Both the position numbers and the translations under genes were made by a program. A stretch of DNA of 23,964 nucleotides from a virus, in IMG/VR virus record IMGVR_UViG_3300036670_000087, positions 1 through 23,964 of that record. One strand, written 5' to 3'. The notes under the pieces are model-generated. The model saw only the letters and a program-made list of their open reading frames with translations. It was not told where the DNA came from and did not search any database. Shown here piece after piece: positions 2,681-23,964 of this stretch (position 1 is the first letter of the stretch; each line of letters starts with the position of its first letter).

Positions 2681-3298
2681 TCAAGTGTTAAATAGTGTTT
2701 TGTTAATATCTTTAATTATTTTATTTTTCCTTTTTAGTTTGTTACTTATCTCATAAATCCAAATTATTTTAGGCAATCCAGTTTTTACTATTGCTCTTCC
2801 TTCCTTAACGGCTTTTCTTAATTCGTGAGAATAAGGTCTATCAATACTAAGACTTCTTGGATGATATGTTTTATATCCGTACTCTACAAATTTAGTTGGT
2901 GTTGTTTCTCCTATGTTTTTAAAATTAGCAGCTTTGTAGATAGTACCGTTATGCCCTACCGTCTTATCACTGTAAGATAAAACATAATTATACTCTGTAT
3001 TGCTTCCGCACCATTTTATTATCTGAGACAAAAACCAGCTTTCACTATTGCAAGGTGCATCATCTAAACAAGCCATGCGCCTAATATCAATGCAGTTTTT
3101 ATATTTCTTTTCGTGTCTTGGTTTTCCCATTACACTACCACCTACTAAAACATCATTAATAAACATAGCAAAACAAACGCTTATTCCTCCACCCATTGCA
3201 CCTTTTTTATAATGGTATTCCTCAAATATGTGCCGTATATCACTAAACTTACACGTTTTGATATGGCATTTTGTTTTATCTAATTTTTCCTTTTTCAT
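2681..3298 (-). CDS. Mom-like adenine modification protein (GNAT fold)
   Basis: A 205-residue protein matching the phage Mu Mom family by eye. Landmarks are HY at residues 29-30 followed by a glycine run (GAMGGG, 33-38), the central strand FINDVLVGGSVMGKPR (46-61), IRRMACLDDAPCNSESWFLS (72-91), then SYSD at 108-111 and GHNGTIYKAANF at 115-126. In Mu, Mom is a GNAT-related enzyme that changes adenine to an N6-carbamoylmethyl form and protects phage DNA from host restriction. The ATG overlaps the end of the replication-initiator-like gene (ATGA), so it is made early with the replication proteins. No obvious com-like translational activator is next to it. The alternative is a related GNAT of other specificity. 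Confidence 0.75.
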   Translation of the reverse strand: MKKEKLDKTKCHIKTCKFSDIRHIFEEYHYKKGAMGGGISVCFAMFINDVLVGGSVMGKPRHEKKYKNCIDIRRMACLDDAPCNSESWFLSQIIKWCGSNTEYNYVLSYSDKTVGHNGTIYKAANFKNIGETTPTKFVEYGYKTYHPRSLSIDRPYSHELRKAVKEGRAIVKTGLPKIIWIYEISNKLKRKNKIIKDINKTLFNT

Positions 3299-4140
3299 TT
3301 TAATAAAGGTTTTTTAACTGGTTTGGTTTCTCTGGCAGACATCAGCAATGTTAATATCTGTTTTCTAAGTTTAGCAGTAGACAAAATATTTGCTTTCCAA
3401 AACTCTCCTCGCTCATCCGCTAGGTAAGCATATACATCCCTCAAATCTTGAACGCTTGCTTCTTGGTTTTGTATCATTAATCTAATTGGGTCGACATAGT
3501 TTTTAAACGTTGCTTTTTGTTGGTTAACAATCGAAGCATTTTTCTCCGTTAAATTATCTATAAATAGCTGTTGAAAGTCTTTAGCTATTTTAAAATAATC
3601 AATCATAGATTCTTCGACGTCTGAAATTTTTATTTCAGATATAAGACTATTATTTATATTATATTCTCTTGTCTTATCTTCTCTTATCTTATCTGCGATG
3701 TTTTGCGATTGGTTATCAATCGGTATGCTATCGGTATGCGATACTTTTGCGATACTTTTAGACATTAAAACTGCCATATCTAAAGATATTTCTTTGTCAA
3801 TAAATTTCTTGTAAATATCATTGTGCCAGCGTTTTAAGTTTCCAACTATACCGCTTTTGCTCTTATCTTGTTTACTTTCCTTTATTGTTAAGTTTTGCTC
3901 ATCTAAAAAAGAAATATAAATATCTGTTTCATCTGTAGTAATAATTTTCTTTGATTTTAATATATCAAAATGCTCTTGTTCAATTTCAATTATAGCGTCT
4001 TCAATTGTAGTTTCGCAATCTCTATTCCAATATAAACAACATAGCCTTAAAAAGCGTGCCTGTGTTACTTCTGGACATCTTTGTATCTTACCCATTACCC
4101 AATCAGTAGGGGTAAATTTAAACCATTGTAGCTTATCCAT
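3295..4140 (-). CDS. Replication-initiator-like protein
   Basis: A 281-residue protein. The N-terminal part (about 1-75, LQWFKFTPTDWVMGKIQRCP, then a patch of W, C and R residues) looks like the winged-helix-type N-terminus of phage replisome organisers. A polar linker with KSGIVGNLKRWHND follows. The C-terminal part (about 185-270) has the motif GEFWKANILSTAKLRKQI, close to the end of DnaD/replication-protein-type C-terminal domains in Bacteroidetes phages. It likely binds the phage origin and recruits the ATPase encoded at 432-1325. It overlaps its neighbours on both sides (8 and 4 bases). No repeated iteron array is visible inside the gene, so the origin is not located. Confidence 0.65.
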   Translation of the reverse strand: MDKLQWFKFTPTDWVMGKIQRCPEVTQARFLRLCCLYWNRDCETTIEDAIIEIEQEHFDILKSKKIITTDETDIYISFLDEQNLTIKESKQDKSKSGIVGNLKRWHNDIYKKFIDKEISLDMAVLMSKSIAKVSHTDSIPIDNQSQNIADKIREDKTREYNINNSLISEIKISDVEESMIDYFKIAKDFQQLFIDNLTEKNASIVNQQKATFKNYVDPIRLMIQNQEASVQDLRDVYAYLADERGEFWKANILSTAKLRKQILTLLMSARETKPVKKPLLK

Positions 4141-4369
4141 TTAAACCCTCACTTTCTTTAATATATCCAATTTGTTTTTTTAATTCTCTAACTAATCTAA
4201 TAGCTGATAATTTACTTAAACAGATAATTTGAGATTCAAAGTCGTGATTACAATCTGAGTTTTTAATCTTAATAAAAATAGAATTAAGGCTATTTGCATA
4301 AGCTACTAACTCCTGACCATTAGTTTCTGATTCTTCAGTACCATAAAATACTAATTTTACATTTTCCAT
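4133..4369 (-). CDS. Hypothetical protein, 78 aa
   Basis: Small soluble protein beginning MENVKLVFYGTEESETNGQE, with alternating strand-like segments and a C-terminal helix (SAIRLVRELKKQIGYIKESE). No family recognised. It is the first gene downstream of the internal promoter and structured leader at 4419-4541, and its stop overlaps the replication-initiator gene by 8 bases, so its translation is probably coupled to that gene. Confidence 0.65.
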   Translation of the reverse strand: MENVKLVFYGTEESETNGQELVAYANSLNSIFIKIKNSDCNHDFESQIICLSKLSAIRLVRELKKQIGYIKESEGLNG

Positions 4370-4418
4370 AATTTTAACGGTTTAAAGATTACCGATAACT
4401 ATTTAGTTAAACGAGAAA

Positions 4419-4498
4419 ATCCCATCAGTTTGGTAGTAGAGTACCTCCCTGATAGGATAATAAAAATATTTTTCATCGTATTGAACTCTCTACCGAAC
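4419..4498 (-). promoter_or_regulatory. Structured 5' leader RNA with two interleaved stems
   Basis: In the longest uninterrupted gap of the early operon (4370-4547), two inverted repeats interleave. Stem A pairs 4419-4428 with 4449-4458 (ATCCCATCAG / CTGATAGGAT); the one non-Watson-Crick position is G-U in the minus-strand RNA. Stem B pairs 4428-4442 with 4485-4498 (GTTTGGTAGTAGAGT / ACTCTCTACCGAAC, one bulge, one mismatch in minus-strand RNA). The 3' strand of B lies in the loop of A, so the stems either exclude each other or form a pseudoknot. Hairpin A is followed on the minus strand by TTTTC, a weak terminator-like tail. A TAnnTTTG promoter lies just upstream at 4509-4516. Attenuator or riboswitch-like control of the replication genes is an inference. 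Confidence 0.45.
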
Positions 4499-4508
4499 AA
4501 TACTAAAG

Positions 4509-4541
4509 CAAATATACAAAATAATTCGATATAAAAAACAA
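4509..4541 (-). promoter_or_regulatory. Internal early promoter
   Basis: On the minus strand, TATATTTG (4509-4516) matches the Bacteroidetes -7 box TAnnTTTG, and a TTG (4539-4541) lies 22 bases upstream, within the accepted 17-23 range. It sits just after the stop of the 41-aa gene and points into the structured leader before the 78-aa gene. Confidence 0.5.
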
Positions 4542-11408: not shown

Positions 11409-12235
11409 AATATATCAATTTTACTTGCTATTATTTCAACTTCGATAGCGTCTAAGTTACAAGTCCAAGTTTCAGCAACTGCAGAATCACATACCACTTT
11501 ATTTTGCAAATTATCTAAATCACTCCAAGAAACTATTTGACTTGTAATATCATACTCGTTAGGCGTAACACTTGCATTGGTGTCTCCTGTAATTGTAGCT
11601 AATGATATATCAGCACCACCTTTATTCCATTTTAACTGAACATCTGCATTATTTAAAACCGTTCCTGCAGTTTGAAAATAAAATCTAAGTTTCACGCTGC
11701 TAATTATCAATTCACTTTTATTAATTAGATTAGCATAGTCTAGCAAAATAGTCCCATTTCTTGCTGCTAAAACATTACCTGTAAAAGTAGCGTTAATTGA
11801 ATCACGTCTACCGTTTGTTCCAGATATTGCATTATTAGGATTAGTCCATCCTTGCGTATTAGTTGTTGATAAAGTGGATAAATTTCCCCCTACCGTTCTA
11901 GTTAAATTATAGCTAACTTGTGTTAACTTAAATGCAGGTCTTTGAGTAGGTCTAAACAATCCGCTTACGCTCGTAACTACTTTTATACCCGCATTTATTA
12001 TTTCTTTTTTAGAAAATCCACTTGCAAAAGTACTTATTTTAAAAGCGGGGTTTTGCCTCATCAATAAACGAAATGGAGCTTGTGATATTTTTATCCCCGC
12101 TACATTAAATCCTATTATTGCTCTAAAAATAGTTTGTATTTTAATCCCTGCTTTGTTTTTGAATAGGTAATTAACGCCACCAATAGCTGCGACTCCTTTT
12201 TTTATTACATTAAAATATTGTACTAATTTATTCAT
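11405..12235 (-). CDS. Putative fibre-associated protein with N-terminal AGIK/PAFK repeats
   Basis: A 276-residue protein. Residues about 28-120 hold five imperfect repeats of 17-19 residues, each beginning [AP]-[GA]-[IF]-K-[IVL] (AGIKI, AGIKI, PAFKI, AGIKV, PAFKL). The C-terminal half (about 125-276) is a beta-rich domain with NATFTGNVLAARNG, KLRFYFQTAGTVLNNADVQL and NEYDITSQIVSWSDLDN, resembling DNRLRE/carbohydrate-binding jelly rolls that occur in phage fibres and cell-surface proteins. It overlaps the collagen-like fibre gene by four bases (ATGA), so the two probably act together at the host surface. The assignment to the virion is by context. Confidence 0.55.
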   Translation of the reverse strand: MNKLVQYFNVIKKGVAAIGGVNYLFKNKAGIKIQTIFRAIIGFNVAGIKISQAPFRLLMRQNPAFKISTFASGFSKKEIINAGIKVVTSVSGLFRPTQRPAFKLTQVSYNLTRTVGGNLSTLSTTNTQGWTNPNNAISGTNGRRDSINATFTGNVLAARNGTILLDYANLINKSELIISSVKLRFYFQTAGTVLNNADVQLKWNKGGADISLATITGDTNASVTPNEYDITSQIVSWSDLDNLQNKVVCDSAVAETWTCNLDAIEVEIIASKIDIL

Positions 12236-22978: not shown

Positions 22979-23017
22979 CAAATATACAAAAAAACACGTT
23001 ACAAAAGCAACGTGTTT
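22979..23017 (-). promoter_or_regulatory. Late promoter box with overlapping palindrome
   Basis: TATATTTG on the minus strand (22979-22986) is followed four bases later by the ATG of the first late gene, so the transcript may be nearly leaderless. A perfect 9-bp inverted repeat, AAACACGTT (22992-23000) / AACGTGTTT (23009-23017), covers the place of the -33 element; no TTG lies at the usual 18-base spacing (15 or 21 are available). The repeat may be an operator or activator site, or, since it is followed by TTTT on the minus strand, an intrinsic terminator. Confidence 0.5.
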
Positions 23018-23108
23018 CAAACCAACTAAAAATAATTATGAAAAGACTTTGTAAAGATAATGTTTTTTTGTATGCAAAAAATAAATTAAAAGTTTTACAA
23101 TAAAATGG

Positions 23109-23137
23109 TTGTTAATATAAATAAAGTTATATATTTG
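23109..23137 (+). promoter_or_regulatory. Rightward promoter before the structured leader
   Basis: TTG (23109-23111), 18 bases, then TATATTTG (23130-23137). Spacing and boxes equal those of the two promoters near 8.3 kb. Transcription should begin about 23141-23145. Confidence 0.75.
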
Positions 23138-23140
23138 CAA

Positions 23141-23220
23141 TGTAAAGAAGTCGGAAGCTTTACAACTAACAAAATTATTAGACTGATTAAACGTACCGAC
23201 TTACGTTTTATCGGTCTTTT
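23141..23220 (+). promoter_or_regulatory. Leader RNA with two hairpins having complementary loops and a terminator-like end
   Basis: Hairpin 1 pairs TGTAAAG (23141-23147) with CTTTACA (23158-23164). Hairpin 2 pairs AAACGTA (23189-23195) with TACGTTT (23202-23208). The loop of hairpin 1 holds AGTCGG (23149-23154) and the loop of hairpin 2 is CCGACT (23196-23201), exact complements, so a 6-bp kissing interaction or a pseudoknot can form. A further TCGGT (23211-23215) can pair with ACCGA (23195-23199) and is followed by CTTTTTT, a terminator-like end that competes with the kissing contact. The rest of the 22975-23233 gap contains the two promoters and A/T-rich DNA. Transcription attenuation is inferred; it does not match a riboswitch class I recognise. 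Confidence 0.55.
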
Positions 23221-23233
23221 TTATTTATTTATT

Positions 23234-23836
23234 ATGTTTAGAAAAGTTTTAATTGATAATCATTCTAGTTTTTGCATTGATAAAAAAGGAGAACATCCTT
23301 TTAATTACAATCAAAGGCATTTTTGCGAAGTAAATTTAGATAAAATACTATTTCAAATCGAAACTGATTTTTATTTAGTATTAATGCCTAAATGTATAAT
23401 CGATGATAAGTTTGAAAATATAGTTGATTTAGTAAAATCGTGTATTAAATCAAGAAAAACAAAAGATACTATTTACGAAAGTTATGTTAATAAAAGTATT
23501 TCGAATAAAGAATTACAAGATTTAAGAATTAGAGGATTAGAACTAAAAAAATGGATGGCTCAGGTACATTATATTTACAGTAACGCAGCTAAAAAAGTAT
23601 TTAACATAACAAGCGAAGTTTTATTTAAAGAAAATTGGTTAGGTACTTGGAACTATGATTTAAATCTTTCTTATTTAGATGCTAAAGAGTATTTAAAAAA
23701 CGATAAATATTTATTAAATCAACTTGAAGAACTTTATGAAACTAATTTAATAAAAGATTATACCTCAGAAATTGAAGTATTTAAAACAATAGATTCATTA
23801 ACAAAAAAAATAAGAAAAACAATTAAAAACAAATAA
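23234..23836 (+). CDS. Hypothetical protein, 200 aa
   Basis: No family recognised. The ATG at 23234 (MFRKVLIDNHSSFCIDKKGE) is chosen because an upstream ATG at 23105 would place the promoter and the structured leader inside the gene. The protein is charged and mostly helical in its second half (NKELQDLRIRGLELKKWMAQ; LNQLEELYETNLIKDYTSEI), with an N-terminal strand-rich part (HFCEVNLDKILFQIETDFYL). Its last residues are basic (TKKIRKTIKNK). It is the first gene on the plus-strand transcript next to the tail operon and is followed by another gene after two bases; a role in packaging initiation or regulation is only positional guesswork. Confidence 0.65.
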   Translation: MFRKVLIDNHSSFCIDKKGEHPFNYNQRHFCEVNLDKILFQIETDFYLVLMPKCIIDDKFENIVDLVKSCIKSRKTKDTIYESYVNKSISNKELQDLRIRGLELKKWMAQVHYIYSNAAKKVFNITSEVLFKENWLGTWNYDLNLSYLDAKEYLKNDKYLLNQLEELYETNLIKDYTSEIEVFKTIDSLTKKIRKTIKNK

Positions 23837-23838
23837 TT

Positions 23839-23964
23839 ATGACACCAGTAAACACAAAATCACTATTATCATTTGTATTTTCTCAAATGGAAAAACTAGA
23901 CAACAAAGAAATAGATGTAGACACAGCTAATGCACAGTCTAAATTAGTTCAACAAGCTAATAAT
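23839..23964 (+). CDS. Partial hypothetical phage protein (N-terminus)
   Basis: Forty-two codons are present before the right edge: MTPVNTKSLLSFVFSQMEKL, then DNKEIDVDTANAQSKLVQQANN. This helical opening resembles small conserved Bacteroidetes phage/prophage proteins of unknown function that tend to lie near packaging genes. It starts two bases after the preceding stop, in the same transcript. Confidence 0.6.
   Translation, partial: MTPVNTKSLLSFVFSQMEKLDNKEIDVDTANAQSKLVQQANN

Follow-up and report, generated by a model that had tools for sequence, protein, structure and literature searches.

A predicted kissing-loop leader RNA with its own terminator ahead of early genes in viruses of Bacteroidota

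Many viruses of Bacteroidota appear to start early genes with a leader RNA of about 80 bases in which two hairpin loops are predicted to kiss. Its members have a common layout, i.e., a sigma-A promoter, a 5' hairpin, a linker, a terminator with an apical loop complementary to the first loop, and a start codon. The fold is practically certain, and the leader probably sets whether the downstream gene is switched on. We describe it here in the window, by which is meant the whole 23,964-nt stretch analysed, a 24-kb IMG/VR virus record with tail genes that resemble those of Flavobacterium phage 11b, and in the family to which it belongs.

The leaders of the window and their surroundings

The original prediction held that a promoter, TTG-N18-TATATTTG, is followed at once by two hairpins with complementary loops, and promoter and hairpins are present as it described (Table 1). 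The complementarity of AGTCGG and CCGACT is real but extends over 7 nt (AAGTCGG/CCGACTT), one more than claimed, and the second hairpin, which does carry CCGACT in its loop, is merely the inner part of a longer terminator hairpin of 8 + 6 or 7 pairs with AAACGT(A)/(T)ACGTTT as its inner stem. The sigma-A box of Flavobacterium psychrophilum, TAnnTTTG, is located at positions -12 to -5 (PMC9723704), so that the RNA start in the window is predicted near 23142 and H1 would form the 5' end of the RNA. The leader fold beats its shuffles (z = -4.0) and scores 40 with the layout descriptor introduced below. From the stable hairpin at 23180-23217 and the T6 run that immediately follows it, a combination found family-wide, an intrinsic terminator is predicted upstream of the 200-aa ORF, with 11 nt between T6 and the ATG. 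This terminator sits between promoter and start codon, as expected of an attenuator leader, and in the intergenic gap between the divergent tail gene and the 200-aa ORF the sole promoter seen is the one upstream of the terminator, in agreement with the proposal that a cis-located, attenuator-like regulatory RNA lies ahead of this gene.

It had also been proposed that a rival TCGGT/ACCGA pairing makes termination and loop contact mutually exclusive, and this part was not borne out. The ACCGA/TCGGT hairpin was rejected as too weak (-3.8 kcal/mol versus -16.3 kcal/mol for the full hairpin); TCGGT belongs to the outer stem, where it pairs with upstream GACTGA, and with the terminator stem located elsewhere the loop is free to kiss. 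Given the weakness of the alternative, the stop signal and the loop contact are expected to be compatible, without competition.

Table 1. Positions of the two leaders and adjoining genes in the window
Feature	Position	Strand	Detail
sigma-A-type promoter (Bacteroidota)	23109..23137	+	TTG 23109-23111, 18 nt, TATATTTG 23130-23137
hairpin H1	23141..23164	+	stem 7 bp, TGTAAAG 23141-23147 / CTTTACA 23158-23164; loop AAGTCGGAAG
K, 5' side of kissing helix	23148..23154	+	AAGTCGG; from layout descriptor; identical in homologous L006 leader
A/T-rich linker, H1 to terminator	23165..23179	+	15 nt; from sequence
H2, predicted intrinsic terminator hairpin	23180..23217	+	outer stem AGACTGAT 23180-23187 / ATCGGTCT 23210-23217; inner stem 23189-23194/23203-23208
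K', 3' side of kissing helix	23196..23202	+	CCGACTT, apical loop of H2; from layout descriptor
terminator T-run	23217..23222	+	T6; from sequence
200-aa ORF behind leader	23234..23836	+	without family match
next module gene, start (MTPVNTKSLLSF...)	23839..23964	+	common to L006, order kept
second leader, promoter box	4509..4516	-	TATATTTG; from sequence
second leader, H1	4478..4503	-	GTATTG/CAATAC; K = GGTAGAG 4488-4494
second leader, H2 terminator hairpin	4419..4458	-	K' = CTCTACT 4435-4441
second leader, H3, third small hairpin	4378..4394	-	CGGT-AATCTTTAA-ACCG, directly 5' of ATG
replication operon gene 1, behind second leader	4133..4369	-	78-aa ORF
DnaD/O-like replication gene, next in operon	3295-4140	-	replication operon

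A second leader was found on the minus strand (4516-4370) with a covariance model of the first subfamily. Its loops differ from those of the first leader, its K/K' contact comprises six Watson-Crick pairs and one G-U, and the stem of its H3 hairpin is AGGT/ACCT in mumin-type phages. One more descriptor match (score 35, at 11864 on the minus strand) falls within a coding region and was judged a chance hit. The early operon of the window also holds a gene for a Mom-like DNA modification protein (2681-3298, minus strand; Pfam PF25680, E 3.5e-23; PHROG 1384).

No close relatives of the 200-aa protein were found in the viral contigs searched, and the sole relative found is weak, with 26% identity, from phage OP947161 (L019). 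The region upstream of that gene was rejected as a leader, having ordinary hairpins with loops that do not match by eye. The phage is recorded as 'Rhodobacteraceae phage', a host label that may be worth checking. Relatives of the window, collected via the tail terminator gene, carry other cassettes at the leader locus. In one of them (L006) the same leader, which measures 109 nt between the -7 box and the ATG and shows scattered changes, lies in the opposite orientation ahead of an unrelated gene, followed by the same third gene as in the window. Loops and most paired positions are identical between the two leaders, and an outer-stem G-C pair of the window (23185/23212) is U-A in L006, i.e., one compensatory change. 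Two other relatives have a NUMOD4/HNH endonuclease in the same place and a leader of the same layout and different sequence; these endonucleases were used to fetch further leader loci.

Between the HK97-gp10-like gene and the tail terminator gene lies an insertion hotspot (window 23000-23964, and L003-L016), with several different cassettes, in both orientations, among closely related phages. At 22991-23018 on the minus strand of the window a terminator-like hairpin (GAAACACGTT..AACGTGTTTT) runs straight into a TATATTTG box (GTGTTTTTTTGTATATTTGTAACATG); this overlap of stop signal and promoter precedes the tail terminator gene and is conserved in L003-L013. In L005 and L011, unrelated hotspot cassettes upstream of the tail terminator gene have a common 5' leader motif, CAATAACGCTAAA, after the promoter.

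Conservation and covariation of the pairings

The GGAG subfamily was collected with a pattern that combines GGAGTGGNNGCC in H1, CNNCCACC in H2 and a promoter box upstream, and 57 viral contigs were found. When the promoter box was left out, GGAGTGGNNGCC...CNNCCACC gave mostly G+C-rich chance matches, which the promoter box removed. Applied to 257 Gb of genomes from bacteria and archaea, the pattern, which covers the GGAG subfamily only, gave three matches, all in records that do not carry the name Bacteroidota; none has the architecture and two are non-complementary. Two N positions of the loops are free on both sides of the pattern and these are complementary in 44 of 45 distinct viral leaders, with four pair combinations present in similar numbers. 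An alignment of 40 distinct leaders of this type provided the compensatory changes that the original prediction had asked to be looked for: all four helices covary, 93.3% of cells are paired versus 73.1% after shuffling, and the covariation score is 0.483 versus 0.140 +/- 0.012 for shuffled alignments and at most 0.11 for slid controls. Pairing in the kissing helix reaches 99.6%, U-A/A-U as well as A-U/C-G exchanges occur there, and the helix is conserved along with the two stems. When mutual information was calculated without a supplied structure, seven pairs of the predicted helices ranked top, two of which are kissing pairs, and neither an alternative pairing above the four helices nor a conserved antiterminator pairing emerged. 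As G-U pairs are tolerated in the stems, selection acts on the RNA. A leader peptide was considered and rejected, as ATGATAAAGAC..TGA in H2 of some GGAG members is not conserved and others (L141) have CAGATA. The only GGAG-type leader with non-matching loops (L174, 1759-1832) has GTGGCAG versus CTTCCAC, a single mismatch.

A second subfamily of 12 distinct leaders was collected by the H3 hairpin alone, i.e., by a motif outside the loops. In this set the loops pair in all 12 members, over 6-10 nt, and pairing of at least 8 nt was seen in 10 of 12 leaders versus 4.7% in shuffles; between some members the K and K' sequences have traded places. The layout descriptor, in turn, calls for a promoter box, a hairpin with a 7-nt K in its loop, a terminator whose inner hairpin contains the complement of K, and an ATG behind. 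At a score of at least 36 it gave 27 matches in 24 sequences (0.41 Mb) versus none in three shuffles, and in 1.26 Mb of AT-rich loci it gave 114 matches versus none in one shuffled set, 1 in another and 1 in the reversed sequences. The 114 matches are not all independent, as many contigs came via the GGAG pattern, and many of them are leaders other than the one by which the contig was recruited.

The geometry is close to fixed. There are 26 distinct K sequences among 74 non-redundant leaders, the K-K' spacing is 45-49 nt in most of the 74, and in many members the start codon lies 11-13 nt behind the stem, a nearly constant distance. In many leaders both loops consist of one 5' nucleotide and seven paired nucleotides, a form from which a real kissing complex would be expected rather than an open-strand switch. 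An unpaired core common to the subfamilies was not found. HNH-gene leaders of another layout were seen in L021 and L022 (about 2880-3000) and in L033 (about 2880-3000, where it occurs twice), with an 8-nt apical loop (TTCACGTT, AGCGTTTA) complementary to the sequence between the T-run and the ATG.

Distribution, downstream genes and exchange of leaders

Besides phage 11b, 34 Flavobacterium phage isolates carry the leader as judged by BLAST, and three leaders were read in hattifnatt9-1; record MN812207 has leaders at 9.4, 13.3 and 14.4 kb. Descriptor matches in isolates include 11b (33643), Polaribacter phage P12002L, in which the leader precedes a replication gene, and Bacteroides fragilis phage B40-8, in which it precedes a Rha regulator gene; the descriptor gave no match in Nonlabens phage P12024S or in the first 50 kb of crAss001. 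The K sequence CCGCCAA is common to the gut Bacteroides phage B40-8 (L260, 28411) and an environmental virus contig (L198, 2882). The genes behind the leaders are mostly homing endonucleases, helicases, primases and replication genes: 59 downstream proteins comprised 22-23 of the NUMOD4/HNH type, six GIY-YIG proteins, five ResIII-type helicases and three BT4734-type primases, along with single matches to DUF3987, a DNA methylase and others. Genes of this kind would be expected to act early in infection.

Leaders are exchanged between phages. The window and L254 have 98.7% identity across 762 nt of the replication operon and 85% in the stretch that precedes the promoter, whereas the approximately 128 nt between these flanks, comprising promoter, H1 and terminator, are unrelated in sequence. 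Unrelated DNA between homologous flanks indicates that leaders are replaced as units, and in this pair the loops change, by divergence or replacement, much more quickly than the DNA on either side. Loops at one locus may be wholly different among phages, yet they are always self-complementary. Within one phage loops generally do not cross-pair; a loop common to two leaders was found in one of 11 genomes with at least two leaders, and identical loops made up one of 24 within-genome pairs versus 11.8% expected, which is not significant alone. Comparison of the loop sequences suggests that they are kept private within one phage; between its leaders the loops nearly always differ, in keeping with a need for every contact to be private.

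Known systems and possible function

The leader family is apparently undescribed. In agreement with the original prediction, which recognised no known class, Rfam 15 gave no match above the curated threshold in the window, 12 leader-bearing loci and three isolate records, and chance-level matches only at a permissive threshold; a full-text search of openly licensed papers returned no description of it. HEARO and omega RNAs are likewise structured RNAs adjoining HNH genes, but the leaders are without Rfam match, and helicases, primases and other genes are found behind them as well; instead of an Rfam match beside an IscB/IsrB-like HNH gene we found genes of the NUMOD4/HNH_3, GIY-YIG and other types. 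In purine-type riboswitch aptamers, too, a fold close to the promoter and linked to a terminator is stabilised by contact between loops. There the contact is internal to the domain that binds the ligand, whereas here one loop is that of the terminator, and any loop sequence is accepted that can still pair. Phage P4 CI RNA and P1 c4 belong to immunity leaders with internal complementary segments and premature termination of an early operon, features that the present phage leader resembles in its internal complementary segments and its predicted stop ahead of an early operon; P4, however, uses a processed trans RNA, whereas here the loops are paired in cis and one phage has several leaders. A terminator in the leader with an outcome that depends on a kissing contact between hairpin loops is known from the antisense attenuators of the pT181 type (PMC4878617), and in this the two would be alike. 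In pT181 the partner is an antisense RNA acting in trans and an antiterminator is freed or hidden, unlike the present leader in which both loops are on one RNA and no antiterminator is conserved.

We put the chances about even that the leader is a cis-acting transcription attenuator, of a phage leader family without a name, and that its terminated fold includes the kissing contact. Transcription would start at H1, which would fold at once, and about 50 nt later the emerging loop K' of the nascent terminator would be captured by the H1 loop K. The product would be a compact rod of stacked helices (H1, the 7-bp kissing helix and the inner and outer stems of H2). The outer stem of H2 would close beside the U-run and most transcripts would probably end there as RNAs of about 80 nt, while read-through would yield the mRNA, with its start codon 10-20 nt further on. 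Kissing may help a working terminator to close, and some infection condition or factor may shift the balance. Helices conserved together, the near-constant spacing and the 1 + 7 loops point to one compact state that contains the terminator rather than to a two-state switch. As an attenuator it would be of a known kind; no description was found of a terminator whose apical loop is bound by hairpin 1 of its own RNA and in which the loop keys can be exchanged. Two findings sit less easily with attenuation in cis: the fast replacement of loops is not required by a purely cis contact, and a conserved antiterminator pairing is absent from the mutual-information analysis. Moreover, H2 appears strong enough to terminate without kissing, in the window as well as in leaders of the L064 type, so the contact may serve another purpose.

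Fast loop replacement leaves room for a role in trans, like that of P4 CI RNA or the copy-number RNAs of plasmids (PMC10724649, PMC4878617). Terminated leader RNAs would accumulate, pair with a nascent leader of the same specificity and lower (or raise) read-through, by which dosage or superinfection would be sensed, and private loops would be specificity types; P4 immunity and the control of pT181 and IncI-complex plasmids are the models for this. We regard this as unlikely, even though it would account for the discrete cassette exchange between near-identical operons, for loops at one locus that differ wholly while remaining self-complementary, and for the rarity of a common loop in genomes with several leaders; in IncK plasmids single loop changes alter compatibility (PMC10724649). 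Against it, the loops are complementary within one RNA, so that pairing in cis should win, neither a separate antisense RNA nor a promoter for one was seen, known isolates such as the mumin group are virulent (PMC7077304) and not expected to have immunity, and the within-genome loop differences are suggestive only. It is tempting to speculate further that a phylum-wide code exists, in which each early gene or operon has a terminator with a private kissing-loop key, cassettes are swapped, and the terminated RNAs serve to sense the dosage of the genome or the presence of co-infecting phages with the same loop type; this is rather unlikely, and if true loop sequences would define compatibility groups among virulent phages.

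That the leader is not a regulator of read-through at all and is a separate small RNA gene that merely precedes the ORFs, or an element of 5'-end stability, we consider improbable. Promoter, compact fold and terminator alone would indeed make a stable RNA of about 80 nt, but the nearly fixed position of the start codon, the lack of any other visible promoter for the ORF in the window and the family-wide coupling to early ORFs argue against it. Quite improbable is antitermination of the kind known from HK022 putRNA, an RNA of about 70 nt with two stem-loops just downstream of PL by which termination is controlled by RNA alone (PMC9378689). The kissing fold would bind RNA polymerase and let it pass its own and later terminators, and the promoter-proximal position, the two stem-loops and the early genes are as in put; however, what that source tells of put includes no kissing loops and no internal terminator (PMC9378689), whereas the second stem of the leader is itself the terminator, and no unpaired sequence is common to all members. 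Chance, or a repeat at the DNA level such as the end of a mobile element, is very improbable: leaders do move as units between phages and orientations, but control sets with 0-1 matches versus 114, the G-U pairs, the polarity from promoter to U-run and the start-codon spacing speak against it.

The leaders add a family of structured leader RNAs in phages of Bacteroidota, cultured ones included, at genes that decide early infection, in a group in which control of early transcription is little studied. Being small, with parts that can be changed independently and with natural sets of differing loops, the element makes the role of the loop-loop contact in termination directly testable, and the leader could also serve as a tool for Bacteroidota genetics.
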